Below, piece after piece: positions 4,706 to 36,745 of a stretch of 38,435 nucleotides of DNA. A model generated the notes under the pieces. It did not search any database and was not told the DNA's origin. It saw nothing but the letters and a program-made list of their open reading frames with translations. The translations under genes were made by a program, and so were the position numbers. Within the stretch, counting starts at the first letter, position 1. Each line of letters starts with the position of its first letter. This DNA is from Anaerolineae bacterium. GTDB lineage: Bacteria; Chloroflexota; Anaerolineae; Aggregatilineales; Phototrophicaceae. The DNA is taken from the NCBI GenBank assembly GCA_025454525.1, contig JALOOG010000048.1:1-38435 (forward strand). Direction: 5' to 3'.

Positions 4706-4811
4706 CGAAATTACTTTGAGAATAGATGTAGTTCAAGCAAGGTTTGATCAAATAGCGTGTATTGCGCGTTTCCGTTACAATTTATGTCTCATCAAACTTG
4801 TGAGTGACACC

Positions 4812-5759
4812 ATGACCACACCACCCGAAAACACCCCAACCAATCCCAACTCTAACCGATCGATCTTCGAGAGTGTGCAGAATTTTGTCGGACTCGTGGT
4901 CGCCTTAGGTGCGTTTCTATCGGCCAGCGGTTTTGTGATCGTGCATGTGCATCTAGCGCATTATAGCCCGGTGCAACCGCTCCAGATCCCAACACAACGA
5001 TATGCGTGGGCCTCATTCGGACTCTTGCTCTTGATTCTCTTATCGATGCTGTTATGGTCGGTGGTCGGGGTGTATATCCCCACACGTCAACGTCAAAGCG
5101 GGGCCCCACCGCGCCCTAAATGGGTCGATTTTCTGTTTGGTATCCCCTTCGCACCCAGTTCTAAGCCTGGCAGGGATGGACGCACCTTCAATTGGATCGC
5201 CGTGACCTATGGCATCATCGTGCCGTCTACCTTGGGCGGTTTTTTAATCGGCGCAGACACTTGGCCGTTTTTCGGGGGTGTCTTGTTGATCATTGGTTTG
5301 TCTGGGTCACTGTTAGCGATCGCCACGTCATTAACCGCGATCGCAGATCGGCTTACGATGCTCAACATCGCGGAACAATTGGCTAAAAATAGCCTCGCGA
5401 TCCTCTTTTTTATCGCTTATACTTTGTTGTTAGGGTGGATCTACGGCAATTATGTCTATCGGTTTGTGCCGTATCAGTTTGGCGGAGGCGCACCCTTTGC
5501 CGCACAGATCTACCTACAACCGGATCTGCCCACCGCCAATACTGAGTTAAGCGCCTGTGTGTTATTGGAAACCAATAACGGGTTATTGATCTATCAAAGC
5601 AACTTAAATCGTACCGTGTTTATCCCCTACAGCGAGAACACACTCTTCGCTTATAGCGCCGGATATCACAATGATGAGTCCGATCTCTGTCAACTACCCG
5701 ACGGAGGCGATCCGACGGGCAATCCGATCACGACTCCGGAGTCGTCTGAATCAGATTGA
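4812..5759 (+). CDS. Hypothetical polytopic membrane protein
   Basis: A 315-residue protein, starting at ATG 4812 (MTTPPENTPTNPN); the frame is open further upstream only through repeat DNA. It has a Pro/Asn-rich cytoplasmic-type head, then hydrophobic segments at about residues 24-48, 68-92, 132-152, 157-180 and 198-222. A roughly 90-residue extracytoplasmic-type tail follows, with three cysteines (SACVLLE, DLCQLP) and many Asn/Tyr. No known family is evident to me. The last 32 bases overlap the convergent topoisomerase gene. The function is unknown. Confidence 0.75.
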   Translation: MTTPPENTPTNPNSNRSIFESVQNFVGLVVALGAFLSASGFVIVHVHLAHYSPVQPLQIPTQRYAWASFGLLLLILLSMLLWSVVGVYIPTRQRQSGAPPRPKWVDFLFGIPFAPSSKPGRDGRTFNWIAVTYGIIVPSTLGGFLIGADTWPFFGGVLLIIGLSGSLLAIATSLTAIADRLTMLNIAEQLAKNSLAILFFIAYTLLLGWIYGNYVYRFVPYQFGGGAPFAAQIYLQPDLPTANTELSACVLLETNNGLLIYQSNLNRTVFIPYSENTLFAYSAGYHNDESDLCQLPDGGDPTGNPITTPESSESD

Positions 5760-6777
5760 GTAAGGCGGCTTCTTCCAGATCAAGCCCTTCTGGGAGTGGT
5801 GTTTCGGCCGTTTGAGTGAGGATCTGGTGGATTGTGCCGTCTAGATAGGCTTGGATCACAGCGGGATGAATGTAATATTTTCGGCACACAGCAGGCGTAT
5901 TGCCAAGTCCGACCGCGACTCGTTTGATCGCTTGTGCGACCGCCTTTTTACCGCTGGTTTCGCTCTCACAGGCGGGCAATTGGCACAATGCCTCCACCGC
6001 TAATGCCGATCCGCCCCAAGTCCGAAAATCTTTCGCGGTGAACTCATCACCGGCGATCTGATGCAGATATTCATTGACATCCCCAGAGCTAATCGCCCAC
6101 CCTACGCCGTCCTCATCATAGTATTGGAACAGGTCATAACCGGGGATGTCTCGACAGGCCTTGATCAGCTTGGCCAAGCGTTGATCTTCAAGGTCAATGG
6201 TGTGATCTTTGCCGCTTTTCCCACGAAATGAAAACGCCACTTTGCGCCCATGGATCGCTACGTGGTCATCTTGTAAGGTGGTGAGTCCATACGACTCGTT
6301 TTGGCGCACATATTCAGGATTACCGATGCGAATCAACGTGTGATCCAACAACGAGACCACGATCGCAAGGACTTTTTCGCGGGGTAGCCCGCGCAAGCGC
6401 AAATGACCTTCGATCGTCTGTCGGATCGTTGGTAGGGCCGCGCCAAAACGGGCCATGTGATCAAATTTGACTTTGCTCTGATGCGCGTGCCATTTAGGAT
6501 GATAGCGGTATTGTTTGCGGCCTTTTTGATCGCGTCCGGTCGCTAGAATATGCCCATTGGCATAAGGGGAGATCCACACCTGTTCCCACGCGGGCGGAAT
6601 CCCGATTGCTGCAATCCGGGTTAACTCGGTTTCATCGGTGATCGGCTGATTTTGTCCGTCAAAATAGGTAAAGTGGAGCTGATCGGGATCATCACCCCGT
6701 TCGCGTCGGATACCCGGCTTGGTATCCGAGACATATCGTAACTTGATCGCCCGTGCGATCGCTTTTGGATCTGTCAT
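5728..6777 (-). CDS. DNA topoisomerase IB (poxvirus/bacterial type)
   Basis: A 349-residue type IB topoisomerase that relaxes supercoils through a 3'-phosphotyrosyl intermediate. The N-terminal domain has GIPPAWEQVWISPYANGHI and GRDQKGRKQYRYHPKW, the hallmark of bacterial TopIB. The catalytic core shows FRGKSGKDH (Lys in the beta-hairpin), FRTWGGS (Arg252), and AVCRKYYIHP near the end. Tyr302 is the probable nucleophile; the usual Ser before it is Tyr301 here. AAGG eight bases upstream supports ATG 6777. Length is normal for the family. It overlaps the convergent membrane-protein gene by 32 bp and lies downstream of the coiled-coil membrane protein gene, separated by a hairpin. Confidence 0.95.
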   Translation of the reverse strand: MTDPKAIARAIKLRYVSDTKPGIRRERGDDPDQLHFTYFDGQNQPITDETELTRIAAIGIPPAWEQVWISPYANGHILATGRDQKGRKQYRYHPKWHAHQSKVKFDHMARFGAALPTIRQTIEGHLRLRGLPREKVLAIVVSLLDHTLIRIGNPEYVRQNESYGLTTLQDDHVAIHGRKVAFSFRGKSGKDHTIDLEDQRLAKLIKACRDIPGYDLFQYYDEDGVGWAISSGDVNEYLHQIAGDEFTAKDFRTWGGSALAVEALCQLPACESETSGKKAVAQAIKRVAVGLGNTPAVCRKYYIHPAVIQAYLDGTIHQILTQTAETPLPEGLDLEEAALLNLIQTTPES

Positions 6778-13270: not shown

Positions 13271-13963
13271 TTAGGCGGAGAAGGTATACGTATCACCGGG
13301 GTCAAATACAATCGGTGTGGCAGAGGTTTCATTGTTTACCCGCGTCGCCCATTCACTCACATTCTGCACCAGCGGCGGATAGGTGTTATAGTGCATCGGC
13401 ACGACAAACCGCGGACGGATCAACTTGATCGCTTTGATCGAGTCGTCAATGCCCATGGTGAACAGATCGCCAATCGGCAAAAATGCCACGTCGATCTCCT
13501 CATCACCGATCAACGCCATATCCCCGAATAAGGCGGTATCTCCCGCAAAATACAGCTTGATCCCTTCCGGCGCGCTGAAGATCATGCCCATCGGTTCACC
13601 GCCATACGATCCATCCGGGAGTGAGGAGGTATGAAAAGCGATCGTATATTTAATTCGCACAAACCCCGCGTCATAAGTGCCACCCGTGTTCATCTGGATG
13701 GTGTTATGGACACCTTGTTTGTGTAACCAGTTTCCAATTTCGGGGGTACAAACGACCGCGGCCCCAGTACGTTGTGAAATTGCGACCGTATCACCAATGT
13801 GATCGCCATGACCATGCGAGATCACGATCAGATCAGCGTGAATATTGTTGGCATCAGCAGCGGCTAACGGGTTTCCTGTCAAAAACGGATCACAGAGGAG
13901 TTGTTTACCGTCAATCTTGAAGCTAAAAGCTGCATGTCCTAACCATGTAAAAGAAACAGCCAT
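13271..13963 (-). CDS. UPF0173 metal-dependent hydrolase (metallo-beta-lactamase fold)
   Basis: A 230-residue protein of the normal UPF0173 length. It opens FTWLGHAAFSFKIDGKQLLC, then DPFLTGNP, and has the metal site HGHGDH at residues 50-55, the FAGDTALFGDM loop with a bridging Asp, and the late PMHYNTYP His. These are the family's metal ligands, so it should be an active dinuclear metal hydrolase in the cytoplasm; the substrate is unknown. GAGAGAGGG upstream supports ATG 13963. It lies 65 bp downstream of the GAF histidine kinase on the same strand and may be read from the same transcript. Confidence 0.92.
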   Translation of the reverse strand: MAVSFTWLGHAAFSFKIDGKQLLCDPFLTGNPLAAADANNIHADLIVISHGHGDHIGDTVAISQRTGAAVVCTPEIGNWLHKQGVHNTIQMNTGGTYDAGFVRIKYTIAFHTSSLPDGSYGGEPMGMIFSAPEGIKLYFAGDTALFGDMALIGDEEIDVAFLPIGDLFTMGIDDSIKAIKLIRPRFVVPMHYNTYPPLVQNVSEWATRVNNETSATPIVFDPGDTYTFSA

Positions 13964-14028: not shown

Positions 14029-15294
14029 TCAAGCTAATGGCAAAGTCATTACAAACGTTGCCCCTTTGCCGATCCCTTGACTTTCGGCCCACATGCGCCC
14101 CTGATGTGCTTGGACACTGGCGCGGGCAATGCTTAAGCCGATCCCTAAACCTCCATGCCGGCGGGTCATGTGATCTTCCACCTGATAAAACTCATCAAAA
14201 ATCCGCTGTAATTCTTTTTTATCGATCCCGATCCCTGTATCGGTGATGCTGATCCACACCTCTTGACCACTGCGTACACGGGTTTCTACCCGGATAATGC
14301 CGCCGGGTAAGGTGAAACGTACCGCGTTATTCATGGTATTGGTGAGGGCCATCATGATCCGCGTGCGATCCACATTGACGGTGACATCTTCTTCTGGAAA
14401 TTCGATCATCAAACGATGTTGTTTGGCCTCGGTGAGTAGGATCATCTCGCGGCGCAAGTCCTCTAAAAGTTCGCTCACGGTGACTTGTTCGCGTTGTAAT
14501 TCGACCGCGTTCTGTTTGAGGTAACGCAAATTAACCATGTTTTCGACGATTTGGCGCAATTGGAGCGCGCTTTGCATCACTTTATTGGCATGTTCACGAT
14601 TTTCTTCGTCAGCAACCCCTTCTTGTAGGAAACTGGCATATCCCAGAATCACCCCTAACGGAGTCCGCAATTCATGTGATGCGATCGCGATAAAGTCGCT
14701 TTTGAGTTTGTCTAATTCGCTTACTTCACGATAGGCCTTCTGTACCGCAACCACCAATTGCGCCACTTCGATCGCCACCGCTGCTTCTTCAGCCAAGATC
14801 AACAGATATTGGTGATCTTGTTCCGTCCATGGCAAGCTCCGCTTATTGATCACCTCTAATACGCCGATCACACGGTCTTTTGAGGTCATCGGCACACCCA
14901 ACAGCGATCGAGTCACAAATTGCAGTTCCTCATCGACTTTGTTGTAATGACGCGGATCTTTTTGCACCTCATCTACTTGGATCATCCGGTTTTCACTAAA
15001 GATCCGTCCGGCGATGCTGTCTAAGGGGATCGGTTTGCCGATCAATGAGCGGGCGTTAGCGTTGGTGCTGGTCGTGGCGGCGAAAAACAGTTCTTGCAAG
15101 TTGTGATTCCACAATAACACCGAGGCCGTTTCAGAGTCGGTGATCTGGGCGGCAGCCTCCATGATGTAACTTAACAACGCCTCTACCCGTAGTGTGGAGC
15201 TAAGTAGGGCAGAGTTCAACGTCTTATTCACTTCCAATAAACGTTGAAGGGTTGCAATTTCGGATTCTAATTGGGCGATTCGGGTGTCGGTCAT
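14029..15294 (-). CDS. GAF-domain sensor histidine kinase
   Basis: A 421-residue soluble kinase. A short N-terminal coiled coil (residues 5-35) leads to a GAF domain (about 35-190; LLGVPMTSKDRVIGVLEVIN is the typical core). The H-box SHELRTPLG has His207. The ATPase domain shows NTMNNAVRFT, TDTGIGI, IFDEFYQVED and GLGIGLSIA. GAF suggests binding of a cyclic nucleotide or another small ligand. The start at 15294 has only a weak ribosome binding site. The gene diverges from the ABC exporter across the phased repeat array at 15.4-15.8 kb, so that array could control it. Confidence 0.9.
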   Translation of the reverse strand: MTDTRIAQLESEIATLQRLLEVNKTLNSALLSSTLRVEALLSYIMEAAAQITDSETASVLLWNHNLQELFFAATTSTNANARSLIGKPIPLDSIAGRIFSENRMIQVDEVQKDPRHYNKVDEELQFVTRSLLGVPMTSKDRVIGVLEVINKRSLPWTEQDHQYLLILAEEAAVAIEVAQLVVAVQKAYREVSELDKLKSDFIAIASHELRTPLGVILGYASFLQEGVADEENREHANKVMQSALQLRQIVENMVNLRYLKQNAVELQREQVTVSELLEDLRREMILLTEAKQHRLMIEFPEEDVTVNVDRTRIMMALTNTMNNAVRFTLPGGIIRVETRVRSGQEVWISITDTGIGIDKKELQRIFDEFYQVEDHMTRRHGGLGIGLSIARASVQAHQGRMWAESQGIGKGATFVMTLPLA

Positions 15295-15896
15295 GATTTA
15301 TCTACGTGCCTGTAAGCTTTCTCTGTAGAGTGTAACACCATTAAAGGTATCGTGCGATGTTTGAGCGTTCGGGTTTGGTGTGTAAAACATTTTGATTTGG
15401 TGTGTCTCTTATCTATAGATCTAGTCGTAGTAGTAGGGCCTGTTCAAATGTGTACAACCTCACAAGGCGATCTGTAATGTGGGATATTTTCTATTAATGG
15501 TATCCCAACTATAACGATTTTATCGCAAGTATAACGCGATTTTGGCTATTTTACCCCTAATTTGTGGCATACTGTTTTAAAAAAGTTTTGCACAGGCCCC
15601 TGTTCATAACTTGCCGACTTTTGAACAGGTCTGTTCATAACTCTTATAGTTACAGAGGAGTTTTGAACAGTATTACAGAGTTTTAAACAAAAATTACAGT
15701 CTTTTGAACAAGTTTTGAACAGGTTATGAACAGATTTTACCGAGTTATGAACAGATTTTGGGGAGTTTTGAACAGCTTTTGAACAGACAATCCCTTAAAC
15801 AAATAGTTTTTATCTGTGTTACTTGGGATATTTTGGGATATTTTGCACATATTCAGCGTTGTGATTAAACTGTTTGGAAACGATAACAGGAGTCAT
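15295..15896. other. 602-bp AT-rich intergenic region holding the phased repeat array
   Basis: No gene is supported here. From 15481 to 15600 the sequence is clearly AT-richer than the flanking genes and contains three GGGATATTTT boxes overall (15481, 15825 and 15835). The repeat array occupies 15586-15786. The region separates minus-strand genes on the left from plus-strand genes on the right. Confidence 0.7.
15586..15786 (+). repeat. Phased TTWTGAACAG repeat array (DnaA-box-like iterons)
   Basis: Plus-strand copies of TTTTGAACAG or TTATGAACAG start at 15619, 15661, 15702 (ends AA), 15713, 15724, 15745, 15766 and 15777, with a variant TTTTAAACAA at 15681. Inverted copies (TGTTCATAAC) occupy 15601-15610 and 15632-15641, and a stray inverted one is at 15441. 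Steps are 42, 20, 21, 11, 11, 21, 21 and 11 bp, all close to whole helical turns, so the boxes face one side of the DNA. Several copies are preceded by TTACAGAG or TTACCGAG, giving a loose 21-bp unit. TTTTGCACAG at 15586 and TTTTGCACAT at 15841 match the DnaA-box consensus TTWTNCACA; the others differ by one base. It could be an origin, a DnaA-titration site or an operator. Confidence 0.8.
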
Positions 15897-16814
15897 ATGA
15901 ACGCTATTGAAACGATCGGACTCACCCGCCGCTTTGGCCCATTGACCGCAGTCGATGATCTTACGTTGACGATCAAACAAGGATCGATCTTCGGTTTTTT
16001 GGGGCCCAATGGTGCGGGTAAAACCACCACCGTTCGTATGTTGGCGGCGTTGATCGCCCCGTCACAAGGATCGGCGCGTGTAGCAGGTTATGCGCTAGGC
16101 GGTGACTCGCAACAGATCCGCCGATCAGTCGGGATCTTGACCGAGACTCCGAGTCTGTATGAGCGGTTGAGTGCGTGGGATAACTTGATCTTATTCGGGC
16201 AATTGTACGATCTGTCATCAAAATTGGCCGCGGAGCGTGCGACCCATTACCTAAAGTTAATGGCGCTCTGGGATCGGTGTCATGAACCGGTGGGCGCATT
16301 CTCTAAAGGGATGCGGCAACGAGTCGCCCTCGCACGGGCCTTATTGCATGAGCCACAGATCTTATTTTTGGATGAACCGACTTCCGGCTTAGATCCCGAA
16401 GCGGCGTTTAATGTGCGTGGCCTGATTCAGGATCTGCGCGCCGCGGGTCATACGATCTTCTTGACCACCCATAACCTGAAAGAGGCCGAAGACTTGTGCG
16501 ATCTGATCGCGATCTTTCGGGCGCGTTTGATCGCCTTGGATACTCCGTCGAATTTGCGAGCGCGTTTTGGTGAGCGCGGCACGTTGATCCAATTGCGCGA
16601 TCCGGCGGCCACATGGAGCGCGATCGCCTCCGGTTTGCCGTTTGTGCAACGGGTACAGGTGGACGATTACTGCTTGACGATCACCTCAAGCGATCCCGAT
16701 CAGCACAACCCGGCCTTAGTGAGCGCTTTGGCCGCGGCCGGCGCGCCGATCCAATATGTCACCCCCCTATTAAAGACCTTAGAACAAGTCTATTTGGAGT
16801 TGATCAACGTATGA
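15897..16814 (+). CDS. ABC exporter ATP-binding protein (ABC-2/NatA-like)
   Basis: A 305-residue ATPase subunit. Walker A GPNGAGKTT lies at 36-44, the Q-loop near 83 (LTETPSLYERLSAWDNL), the signature FSKGMRQR at 135-142, Walker B ILFLDEP at 155-161 and the switch His192 (TTHNL). A roughly 85-residue C-terminal DrrA/NatA-type extension follows. AGGAG five bases upstream of ATG 15897 fixes the start; the longer frame from 15816 runs into the intergenic repeat region. The permease start overlaps its stop (ATGA), so the two are translationally coupled and form one exporter. The substrate is unknown; drugs, Na+ and lipids are all known for this class. Confidence 0.93.
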   Translation: MNAIETIGLTRRFGPLTAVDDLTLTIKQGSIFGFLGPNGAGKTTTVRMLAALIAPSQGSARVAGYALGGDSQQIRRSVGILTETPSLYERLSAWDNLILFGQLYDLSSKLAAERATHYLKLMALWDRCHEPVGAFSKGMRQRVALARALLHEPQILFLDEPTSGLDPEAAFNVRGLIQDLRAAGHTIFLTTHNLKEAEDLCDLIAIFRARLIALDTPSNLRARFGERGTLIQLRDPAATWSAIASGLPFVQRVQVDDYCLTITSSDPDQHNPALVSALAAAGAPIQYVTPLLKTLEQVYLELINV

Positions 16815-30080: not shown

Positions 30081-31235
30081 ATGTCTCCATTGCATATCGC
30101 GATCAACGCTTGGTTTTGGTCACGCCCTGATACGGGAAGCGGTCAATACGTGATCCAATTGGTACAGGCGCTCCGCTCTGAACGGGATTTAAAGATCACC
30201 TTGATCCTGCCTCAAGCGGTGCAGGATCTACCGGACGGGGTGAACACCGTGATCATCGGATCTCCATTGCGCGGTCATTGGGGAAAATTACTCTTTGAAC
30301 AAGTCCTTGTGCCGTATCATGCGGCGCAGATCGGCGCAGATCTGCTGCATGTCCCCTATTGGGCTACCCCCATGATCACCCCCCTCCCGACGATCACCAC
30401 CATTTTTGACGTGATCACCCGCATTTTTCCGCAATATCGGGCGGGTTGGTTGGCAGAAAGTTATGTGCGGTTGGTGGAGCGTAGCGCGCATCGTTCCGCC
30501 CATATCCTCACCGACTCCCACGCGGCCCGATCGGATATCGCCACCCAGTTACGGATCGATCCGTCTCGGATCACCGTGACTTGGTTGGCAACCACCGGAG
30601 CGTTTTCGCCGACTCCGACCCCAGAGGACGCGATCGTCAAGGCAAAATACCACTTACCAGATCGCTTTGTCTTGTATCTGGGTGGGTTTCAATTCCATAA
30701 AAACCTGCTCACCTTGATCGATGCCTATGCCCCGATCGCCCAAGAAGTTGCGATCCCGTTGATTTTAGCGGGTCGCCTGCCGTCCGCATGGGGATCGGTG
30801 CAGTTTCCCGATTTACCGGGGCGGATCGCGGAGCATGGGCTGGGTGATCAGGTGCGCTTGATCGGACAGGTGTCGGATAGAGACAAAGTGAGCTTGTATC
30901 GTTTGGCCACGCTGTTTGTATTTCCGAGTCTGTATGAGGGATTCGGGTTGCCCCCATTAGAGGCGATGGCCTGTGGTTGTCCGGTGATCGTGGGGGATCG
31001 TTCCTCTGTGCCGGAGATCGTCGGTGAGGCGGGGATCTTGGTGGATGCCCGCGATCCTCAAGCGTTGACCGATGCGATCCGACGCGGGTTGACCGATGCG
31101 ACGCTCCACGCGGATCTTGTGCAACGTGGGATTGATCGGGCGGCTCACTTCTCATGGAAGCAGACCGCCCAAGCGACGCTACGCTGTTATCAGGAAACGT
31201 TAGGGTTGCGGCGTGCCGGAAAGCAACGGTTGTAG
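30081..31235 (+). CDS. GT4-family glycosyltransferase (GT-B fold)
   Basis: A 384-residue retaining glycosyltransferase. The N-terminal half opens IAINAWFWSRPDTGSGQYVI (Gly-rich acceptor loop). The C-terminal half has FVLYLGGFQFHKNLLTLIDA (donor-site start) and FPSLYEGFGLPPLEAMACG, the E-x7-E motif of GT4, followed by CPVIVGDRSSVPEIVGEAG. It transfers a sugar from a nucleotide donor to a lipid-linked or polysaccharide acceptor at the cytoplasmic face. ATG 30081 is preceded by AGAGGTG; a GTG at 30072 is possible. A TTGACT box at 30031 may be its -35. The last 36 bases overlap the convergent LCP gene. Together with the two LCP proteins it suggests cell-wall glycopolymer synthesis. Confidence 0.93.
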   Translation: MSPLHIAINAWFWSRPDTGSGQYVIQLVQALRSERDLKITLILPQAVQDLPDGVNTVIIGSPLRGHWGKLLFEQVLVPYHAAQIGADLLHVPYWATPMITPLPTITTIFDVITRIFPQYRAGWLAESYVRLVERSAHRSAHILTDSHAARSDIATQLRIDPSRITVTWLATTGAFSPTPTPEDAIVKAKYHLPDRFVLYLGGFQFHKNLLTLIDAYAPIAQEVAIPLILAGRLPSAWGSVQFPDLPGRIAEHGLGDQVRLIGQVSDRDKVSLYRLATLFVFPSLYEGFGLPPLEAMACGCPVIVGDRSSVPEIVGEAGILVDARDPQALTDAIRRGLTDATLHADLVQRGIDRAAHFSWKQTAQATLRCYQETLGLRRAGKQRL

Positions 31236-35074: not shown

Positions 35075-35106
35075 ATATTTGCGATGTGATGATGCGTGAG
35101 ATCGTT

Positions 35107-35112
35107 TATAAT
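35107..35112 (+). promoter_or_regulatory. TATAAT -10 box, first TIR gene
   Basis: A consensus -10 box 38 bp upstream of ATG 35150, inside a block (about 35084-35150) duplicated before the second TIR gene. I see no clear -35 box. Confidence 0.5.
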
Positions 35113-35149
35113 CGATACAAGATTATCACAGCACAAGACGACGGGCGCG

Positions 35150-36745
35150 ATGAAATCAGTATTTATCAGTTATTCCAGTGAAGATCGCCCATGGGTGATC
35201 GAATTGTTTAAGGCGTTACATGATGAGTTGGGGTATTTGGCGTGGTATGACCACTTGACGGCCGCCGCGGCGCAATGGTGGCAAGTGATCATGGAAAACT
35301 TGGAAAACGCCGATTGTGTGATTTATGTGATGACCCCCAACGCGCTTCAATCGACCTATTGCCAAGTGGAGATCGATTACGCGCTCCGCTTGAATAAACC
35401 GATCTTGCCGATCTTCTTAAAAGAATGCACGTATCCAAAAAATTTAGCGGAGCGCGGGATTCAATGGCTAAAGTTGGTTGAAAATTCGGCTGTAGAGCGG
35501 GCCTTAGGGCGGATCGAAAAAGCGTTCGGTCAAATTCGGATCGATAAGCTGCAAAATGGCAAGTATCAACCGCAAAAAGCGGATCGTCCAGCCGCACCGC
35601 GTAAACATGACCCGAAAGAGAGCTATCGCTTGGCCGCGCAAGCTGCCGCCCAAGCCAATTTTTCGTTAGCGTTAGAGCTATATCAGCGGGTGATCGATGC
35701 GGGTGAGTCCTCGTATCGTAAAGGCGCTCAAGAACGCCACGGAGAAATTGAGTTATACGCCGAAATTGTTCATTTATACGAACAGGGCTTGATCCGAGAT
35801 GCACGGCCGCTCTGGCGGGATTATGTGGAGAAATACGGTGATGAGTATGATCCGAAAGCGCTTAAGGCATTGTTAAATCTAGAGCAAAAACCACTGCCCG
35901 CGCCGAAAGCCATTCCGATCGAAATGGCAGAAAGAGCGGCTTACACTTTCAAGGGCAAACGGAATCACGATTGGACTCCGGTAGTCATGACGTTTGATGA
36001 CCTGAAGATCCCCGATATGCCGTTTTGCCTTGTCCCGGTCGGATCATTTGAAATGGGCGATGATCAAAATGACGATCAAATTCGACATCCGCAAACCCTT
36101 TCGCGGCCGTATTGGATCGCACAATACCCAGTGACCCATAGAGAATGGAAACAAGGGGTGGCGGCCGGCGTAGTGCGTGAACCGTCTACCCAAAATCCCT
36201 TAGCTTGGTATCAGGCGGATGATCTACAAGACGCACCTGTGGCAGGGATCTCATGGACGGAGGCCCTAAAATTTTGCCAATGGCTAGGGGCGCGCTTGCC
36301 CACCGAATGCGAATGGGAATACGCGGCGCGAGGGGTGGAAAGTTGGTTATTTCCTTGGGGAAACGATTGGAACAGCGATTACGCGGTGGTACGTGCCAAC
36401 AGCGGCGGAAAACCCAATCCGATCTCGGTGCGATCTGGTGGACGCAGTTGGATCGATGCCCGACACTTGATCGGCAATGTGTCCGAATGGTGTAGCACCC
36501 GCTACCATGAGGATCGCTATCCTTATCCGTATCAATCGGCGGATGGGCGGGAAGATCTCACCGATACCCATGATCAACGGATCTTACGCGGCGGTTCATG
36601 GGATAACGGACGCGATCAGGTAAGCGCGGCGTTACGTCATTGGGGAGAAGTGAGCGATCGATACCATTACCTTGGCTTTCGCTGTGCGCGATCGGCGCTG
36701 ATGCTTAAGGCCATCGCCTCACAACAGATCGCCGAAAAGACGTAA
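35150..36745 (+). CDS. TIR - helical - SUMF1/C-type-lectin-fold protein, copy 1
   Basis: A 531-residue protein. Residues 1-110 are a TIR domain: VFISYSSEDRPWVIELFKAL, then WYDHLTAAAAQWWQVIMENL, VIYVMTPNALQSTYCQVEID and KPILPIFLKE. Residues about 155-250 are helical (AAQANFSLALELYQRVID, LYEQGLIRDARPLWRDYV), TPR-like. Residues about 295-515 are a formylglycine-generating-enzyme/C-type-lectin-fold domain: LVPVGSFEMGDDQ, YWIAQYPVTHREW, RLPTECEWEYAARG, GNVSEWC, RILRGGSWDN and GFRCAR. The FGE copper cysteines are absent (Asn after GGSWD). It is probably a sensor-effector protein, perhaps in defence or signalling, but that is inference. ATG 35150 has only a weak ribosome binding site. Its stop lies inside the palindrome of cassette B. 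Confidence 0.92.
   Translation: MKSVFISYSSEDRPWVIELFKALHDELGYLAWYDHLTAAAAQWWQVIMENLENADCVIYVMTPNALQSTYCQVEIDYALRLNKPILPIFLKECTYPKNLAERGIQWLKLVENSAVERALGRIEKAFGQIRIDKLQNGKYQPQKADRPAAPRKHDPKESYRLAAQAAAQANFSLALELYQRVIDAGESSYRKGAQERHGEIELYAEIVHLYEQGLIRDARPLWRDYVEKYGDEYDPKALKALLNLEQKPLPAPKAIPIEMAERAAYTFKGKRNHDWTPVVMTFDDLKIPDMPFCLVPVGSFEMGDDQNDDQIRHPQTLSRPYWIAQYPVTHREWKQGVAAGVVREPSTQNPLAWYQADDLQDAPVAGISWTEALKFCQWLGARLPTECEWEYAARGVESWLFPWGNDWNSDYAVVRANSGGKPNPISVRSGGRSWIDARHLIGNVSEWCSTRYHEDRYPYPYQSADGREDLTDTHDQRILRGGSWDNGRDQVSAALRHWGEVSDRYHYLGFRCARSALMLKAIASQQIAEKT

Follow-up and report, generated by a model that had tools for sequence, protein, structure and literature searches.

A probable chromosomal replication origin with altered DnaA boxes, located away from dnaA, in an Anaerolineae bacterium

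Analysis of a 38,435-nucleotide stretch of an Anaerolineae genome (termed the window) indicated that positions 15295-15850 are very probably a chromosomal replication origin (oriC) possessing altered DnaA boxes and situated away from dnaA. A replication origin had also been the leading reading of a first-pass annotation of the window, and it is supported by an architecture conserved among relatives, a DnaA-trio unwinding module, the strand-skew minimum of the relative G276, linkage to dnaA in loci L038 and L040, and the joint absence of module and DnaA in another genus of its family, g7. The features of the region and its flanking genes, with the basis of each assignment, are as follows.

13271..13963, minus strand: metallo-beta-lactamase-fold (MBL) protein, a relative of which flanks the origin in four g7 genomes (domain scan and comparison)
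14029..15294, minus strand: GAF-HisKA-HATPase histidine kinase, whose gene is the conserved neighbour at the trio end (conservation across relatives)
15295..15421, no strand: candidate first-melting region (DUE) separating the trio tract from the kinase gene, with GC 0.32 over the 50 bp 15386-15435 (putative)
15422..15438, plus strand: DnaA-trio tract TAG TCG TAG TAG TAG + GG, with its 3'-GAT-5' repeats extending in the direction away from the boxes, the trios themselves at 15422-15436 (sequence)
15440..15449, minus strand: inverted DnaA box adjoining the trios, ATTTGAACAG, one mismatch (sequence)
15449..15457, minus strand: second inverted DnaA box, degenerate here, TTGTACACA (sequence)
15479..15540, no strand: TGGGATA / TATCCCAA / TATCGCAA elements between the unwinding module and the array (sequence)
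15586..15594, plus strand: canonical DnaA box TTTTGCACA (sequence)
15600..15609, minus strand: inverted DnaA box TTATGAACAG (sequence)
15619..15628, plus strand: DnaA box TTTTGAACAG, with 15586, 15600 and 15619 forming a '> < >' box trio (sequence)
15631..15640, minus strand: inverted DnaA box TTATGAACAG (sequence)
15661..15786, plus strand: directional array of seven TTWTGAACA(G/A) boxes and the variant TTTTAAACAA at 15681, in steps of 20, 21, 11, 11, 21, 21 and 11
15823..15840, plus strand: tandem TTGGGATA-TT-TTGGGATA with a 10-bp period, the only match (at most one mismatch) in its own genome
15841..15849, plus strand: canonical DnaA box TTTTGCACA (sequence)
15897..16814, plus strand: ABC transporter ATPase on the array side (domain scan)

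Elsewhere in the window, a protein with TIR and FGE-sulfatase domains (35096-36745) and a topoisomerase IB family protein (5728-6777) were identified.

Box array and unwinding module

The word TTWTGAACA was found 11 times in the window, with ten of the copies (eight direct and two inverted) lying within 15601-15785, compared to a mean of 0.82 and a maximum of 3 in 100 shuffles of the window. Every box named in the first-pass annotation was present where it had been placed, and its start-to-start steps of 42, 20, 21, 11, 11, 21, 21 and 11 bp were reproduced exactly from the direct-box starts (15619, 15661, 15681 for the variant TTTTAAACAA, 15702, 15713, 15724, 15745, 15766 and 15777). Its statement that these boxes miss the consensus TTWTNCACA by one base also held, the sole departure being at position 6 (A, not C), and the two neighbours it had described as canonical (15586 and 15841) are both TTTTGCACA and match the consensus. 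These are the only array-side boxes with the canonical C at position 6, with one more at 15379, and the three account for all but one of the strict TTWTNCACA matches in the whole window, where four were found against 2.95 expected (no enrichment). With ten TTWTGAACA and two TTTTGCACA inside 264 bp, the region forms a DnaA-box cluster of short spacing.

Across its own genome (5.24 Mb, 230 contigs), the exact word TTWTGAACAG was found 84 times, compared to 12 times for the reversed control, and the only tight cluster was that of the window (nine in 187 bp). The strong clustering that the genome-wide count had been proposed to reveal was therefore present, and the counter-case of the same boxes before many unrelated operons was not seen, the exact word forming no second tight cluster. 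The remaining matches were singles, loose pairs or runs approximately 120 bp apart; the latter spacing was found on contigs C50, C79, C93, C106, C157 and C224, perhaps as repeats within protein genes, unrelated to the array.

The earlier reading had overlooked a module of TAG trios with two more inverted boxes (15422-15457), as well as TTGGGATA elements flanking the array on both sides. The basal unwinding system (BUS) is outlined in PMC8287927 as a DnaA box or box pair, a spacer of at most 16 bp and at least three trios, mostly 3'-GAT-5'. Three consecutive TAG triplets were identified 3 bp from a DnaA box of the window, and on sequence grounds 15422-15457 is a Bacillus-type DnaA-trio unwinding module. 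The likeness to the Bacillus subtilis BUS, as that source presents it, extends from the two neighbouring boxes, short GC-rich spacer and 3'-GAT-5' trios to the two distant loci in which dnaA and the gene that follows it enclose the array. The window differs in its use of TTWTNNACA rather than TTATCCACA, in a long spaced array on the other side and in being unlinked to dnaA in its own genome.

In the mechanism proposed, DnaA would bind the inverted box pair (15440-15457) and polymerise onto the TAG trios (15422-15438), with the AT-rich DNA then opening towards the kinase gene and leading to helicase loading. The directional array (15586-15786), in which many neighbouring boxes are separated by one or two helical turns, may gather and orient a DnaA filament that feeds the module. 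Averaged over 29 loci, the least stable of the profiled stretches were found over the trios and just to their left; within the window itself, parts of the array (15646-15715, GC 0.24-0.26) were less stable than the proposed DUE, as was 15486-15535.

Conservation, strand skew and the position of dnaA

Comparison of the region in related genomes, as the first-pass annotation had advised, showed that the box array recurs: among 65 loci retrieved through the kinase, the DNA directly upstream of its gene contained at least four TTWTNNACA boxes per 300 bp in 29 cases. The named kinase relatives were mostly Chloroflexota metagenome-assembled genomes labelled Anaerolineae, Aggregatilineales or Phototrophicales. 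A further 28 kinase loci, partly from the same genomes as the first 65 (judged by shared coordinates), contained at least five boxes in 400 bp in 11 cases, with 10 of 12 in the same-family subset. No array was found in 36 of the 65 loci, some of which hold little upstream DNA, or in 17 of the further 28; the array-less kinases were mostly distant homologs, with two (L100 and L105) from the same family, the record of L100 holding only about 460 bp of upstream DNA.

The 29 array loci together with the window were mapped as a set of 30 regions. All of them have an inverted box 105-145 bp before a direct box; 26 contain a direct and an inverted box separated by 13-16 bp ('> 13-16 <'), and 19 contain the complete '> < >' trio. 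The distribution of same-strand steps had its peaks at 11 bp, with 42 occurrences, and at 21 bp, with 31, and the bases at box positions 5-6 differed between genomes with box order and the 11/21-bp steps remaining similar. When 29 regions were aligned on their first forward box, the kinase side showed repeated TAG, a spacer rich in G and a pair of inverted boxes; at least two TAG lay within 28 nt of the inverted box pair in all 30 mapped regions, and 23 possessed at least three consecutive NAN triplets. Searching for the module by pattern was noisy, with 40 matches in 39 of 98 family genomes compared to 19 for the reversed control, and the pattern misses G276 yet matches one g7 genome for which no DnaA was identified.

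The GC skew of the window (-0.017 to the left and +0.025 to the right of the array) is only suggestive, and the window alone does not single out the array, its cumulative minimum being at 30,741 (-173) compared to -167 at 15,001. G276, a closed single-contig relative of the same family (5.63 Mb), was sampled with 80 samples of 20 kb (28% of the genome). All 12 of its samples between 1 bp and 790 kb had a negative GC skew; between 835 kb and 3.66 Mb the skew was positive except for two small negative samples, and thereafter it was negative with one exception. This placed the cumulative minimum between the 770- and 835-kb samples and the maximum at the 3.64-Mb sample; the antipode of the array is at 3.66 Mb, i.e. 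the maximum lies opposite the array. In 1-kb steps over 770-895 kb (830-835 kb left out) the lowest value was at 844,001, and the base-level minimum within 835-855 kb was at 843,285, about 1 kb from the boxes (844,463-844,823). The resolution is nevertheless about 15 kb, because the cumulative skew stays almost level between about 830 kb (-1389) and 844 kb (-1395), 830-835 kb forms a gap and the TA-skew minimum lies at 827 kb. Among 84 G276 samples, the array had 10 boxes per 420 bp, with a runner-up of 5.

The profile of a second relative, G354 (a 719,899-bp contig), was noisy: the lowest sampled GC-skew value was at 432-447 kb with the array at 596 kb, and agreement with the array was limited to the TA minimum and one local minimum of GC skew. 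The skew switch for which the first-pass annotation had called is thus clear in the closed relative at its approximate 15-kb resolution and is matched only in part by G354, the 38-kb window being too short to decide. On contig G234:C10 (142,920 bp), from a genome scored as lacking DnaA, the skew minimum was at 72 kb and the locus at 130 kb.

The first-pass annotation had also noted that no dnaA is nearby and had counted this against an origin. The absence itself was confirmed, with the window being contig C70 and dnaA being located on contig C112; it nevertheless fits a loss of linkage, as two loci from more remote relatives have retained dnaA beside the array. These loci, L038 (50% kinase identity; the record contains the dnaA end only) and L040 (49%), have the order dnaA - array - kinase. 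An origin beside dnaA in the window's own genome, which the annotation had raised as a counter-case with different boxes, was rejected, with no box cluster found in 9 kb of C112 around dnaA (at most one TTWTNNACA per 400 bp). The G276 record opens at dnaA (1.1 kb), 0.84 Mb from the skew minimum, and the skew keeps its sign at dnaA.

These results bear on whether the region is instead a DnaA-titration or reactivation site of the datA or DARS type. Dense DnaA boxes far from dnaA, with a helical spacing that suits DnaA binding, would be expected of such a site; however, an unwinding trio module is present, the skew minimum of a relative is nearby, the cluster is the sole tight one of its word in its own genome and the array adjoins dnaA in two distant loci, all of which render a titration site very improbable.

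Box sequence and the DnaA recognition helix

The contact residues of DnaA are given in PMC7561715 as R399, P423, D433, H434, T435 and H439. The recognition helix encoded by the window's own genome (GGRTHTTVLHG) was found to have D433 replaced by T, with T435 kept, and thus differs from the canonical D433/T435 helix; D433 was missing from DnaA of the family members read. In the reading proposed, the changed box dialect TTWTNNACA (GA at positions 5-6 here) would be recognised by a DnaA without the usual aspartate (E. coli D433). Position 6 was A in 154, G in 59, C in 40 and T in 20 of 273 boxes. When DnaA proteins were classed by residues 433 and 435, C at position 6 was found in 8 of 9 boxes (TTWTCCACA) for D433/T435 (2 genomes), 37 of 131 for T435 with another residue at 433 (15 genomes) and 7 of 238 for S435 with another residue at 433 (28 genomes).

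Identical DnaA C-termini were entered once in this count. Left out of it were three genomes in which the helix was not parsed (G008, with T433/T435 and C at position 6 in 0 of 8 boxes; G300, with S433/T435 and 2 of 12; and G383), two in which no DnaA was found (G003 and G010), those with no array (G002, G019/G048, G288, G240 and G123) and two for which the array was not fetched (G393 and G395). The T435 and S435 classes (433 other) differed with a raw Mann-Whitney p of 5e-5. Independent contrasts on a DnaA tree built without the DNA-binding domain gave r 0.23 and p 0.14, with 10 of the 16 informative contrasts agreeing with covariation of box and DnaA and 5 opposing it. The association with T435 was therefore dropped as a significant result, and a joint change of box and DnaA helix is considered no more than plausible.

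In a midpoint-rooted DnaA tree, G029 (the genome of L040) was found to group with two D433-keeping genomes that possess TTWTCCACA boxes. Because of this grouping, the ancestral state may have been an origin beside dnaA with canonical boxes, linkage and the canonical base being lost later.

E. coli oriC lies away from dnaA and contains boxes in both orientations. The origin proposed here is alike in its distance from dnaA and mixed box orientations; it differs from E. coli in box sequence (consensus as given in PMC7561715) and in its clear trio module, compared to the weak BUS score that PMC8287927 gives for E. coli. Epsilonproteobacterial origins, as described in PMC5043019, similarly combine a group-specific box consensus with an altered DnaA DNA-binding motif; their core TTCAC, however, keeps C at position 6, whereas here position 6 is free and D433 is lost.

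DnaA in genus g7 and a second repeated element

Among 34 genomes of g7 (e.g. L289, L291 and L322-L349), DnaA was identified at an E value of about 1e-64 in six, with the other 28 showing only weak matches. At a completeness of at least 90% and a contamination of at most 5%, 24 of 29 genomes were found to have no bona fide DnaA match. The weak matches fall in an IstB-like tandem-AAA protein (scanned in one genome), and its identity as DnaA was rejected; it was read as a loader because its best match is IstB and a DnaB-like gene is close by. In L289 (1808-4999) this protein lies near the DnaB-like helicase gene with one ORF between them, and it is possibly a double helicase loader.

The module pattern was found in five of the six genomes with DnaA and in one of the 28 without; the reversed control matched 7 of the 33 listed (kin of the own-genome row aside). 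The sole match without DnaA (G296) has no array and was taken as chance, so that the array-confirmed module is found in five of six compared to none of 28. Fisher p values (1.3e-4 raw, 2e-5 array-confirmed) overstate the case because g7 genomes are close kin and may represent one event. Exceptions were G327, which has DnaA and no module, and G379 (93% complete), G381, G382 and G386, which have the module with no DnaA found. The origin adjoins a relative of the MBL gene of the window in four of the five g7 module genomes, and G342 carries the two on separate contigs. At a cut-off of 1e-100, the kinase had no match among the 13 listed genomes of g7. At 25 MBL loci of g7 genomes without DnaA, the densest 420 bp holds at most two boxes.

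These findings suggest that DnaA was probably lost in most of genus g7. Free-living dnaA-less species are described in PMC7198777 (2020) as unreported outside cyanobacteria. The loss within a lineage that is suggested for g7 resembles that of the dnaA-less cyanobacteria of the same source; it differs in belonging to another phylum and in that the ancestral origin locus of g7 can still be compared. Among the titles and beginnings of abstracts covered, no paper dealt with a replication origin of Anaerolineae or with Chloroflexota that have lost DnaA; the DoriC database was outside this scope and may hold a prediction.

Of the DnaA-less MBL loci, 12 of 25 keep three to six copies of TTGGGATA/TATCCCAA. 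These elements were found 77 times in the 30 oriC regions (24 of which have any) compared to 0.67 expected, and 46 times upstream of dnaA, in 31 of 46 usable regions (52 given), compared to 0.65 expected on uniform bases; a single copy was found within 60.8 kb of dnaA coding sequence. Across relatives, TTGGGATA frequently forms tandems with a 10-bp period; it is located in the window at 15480-15508 and 15823-15840, and in L067 it precedes dnaA at 4714 and 4898. Among 20 chosen tandem sites elsewhere, one each was near lexA (L368), dnaN (L375) and an HU gene (L373), two were near a receiver-GGDEF gene (L362 and L366) and the rest were near unrelated or unnamed genes. A tie to a response regulator was unsupported, as the receiver proteins beside the two tandem sites match GGDEF and not a DNA-binding domain.

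Weak ATP-DnaA boxes with C at position 7 are described in PMC8235120, and an identity of TTGGGATA with such boxes is disfavoured because it is kept in those 12 loci without DnaA boxes. A tentative and rather doubtful proposal is that TTGGGATA is a second control element of the origin and of the dnaA upstream region, its factor governing initiation in the family, and that in g7 this factor, or some other route independent of DnaA, may have taken over initiation from DnaA.

The resemblance of the TTGGGATA elements to regulator sites, and the position between divergent genes with the kinase adjacent, would also suit an operator array at which some transcription regulator controls the kinase gene or the ABC exporter. 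In g7, however, the array persists next to another gene pair and the module is absent where DnaA is absent, and relatives bearing D433 carry plain DnaA boxes at the same place, leaving the operator with even less to recommend it than the titration site. Direct repeats of a box every 21 bp or so are reminiscent of iterons, and the spacing here is of that order, but iterons of a plasmid that has integrated, or of some other mobile element, are least credible of all, with no Rep, relaxase or integrase match among the 30 window ORFs scanned, a position and architecture that recur in many genomes and a box sequence that varies more than its spacing.

Identification of 15295-15850 as a probable oriC would define a candidate origin precisely in a Chloroflexota family that has received little study, and in which a complete record starts with dnaA although the skew switches 0.84 Mb away. 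It would also provide a natural series in which the DnaA box varies at a base fixed in the standard consensus with its spacing largely kept, and the rules of DnaA recognition are therefore testable. Furthermore, a lineage of probable DnaA loss becomes readable at its ancestral origin.
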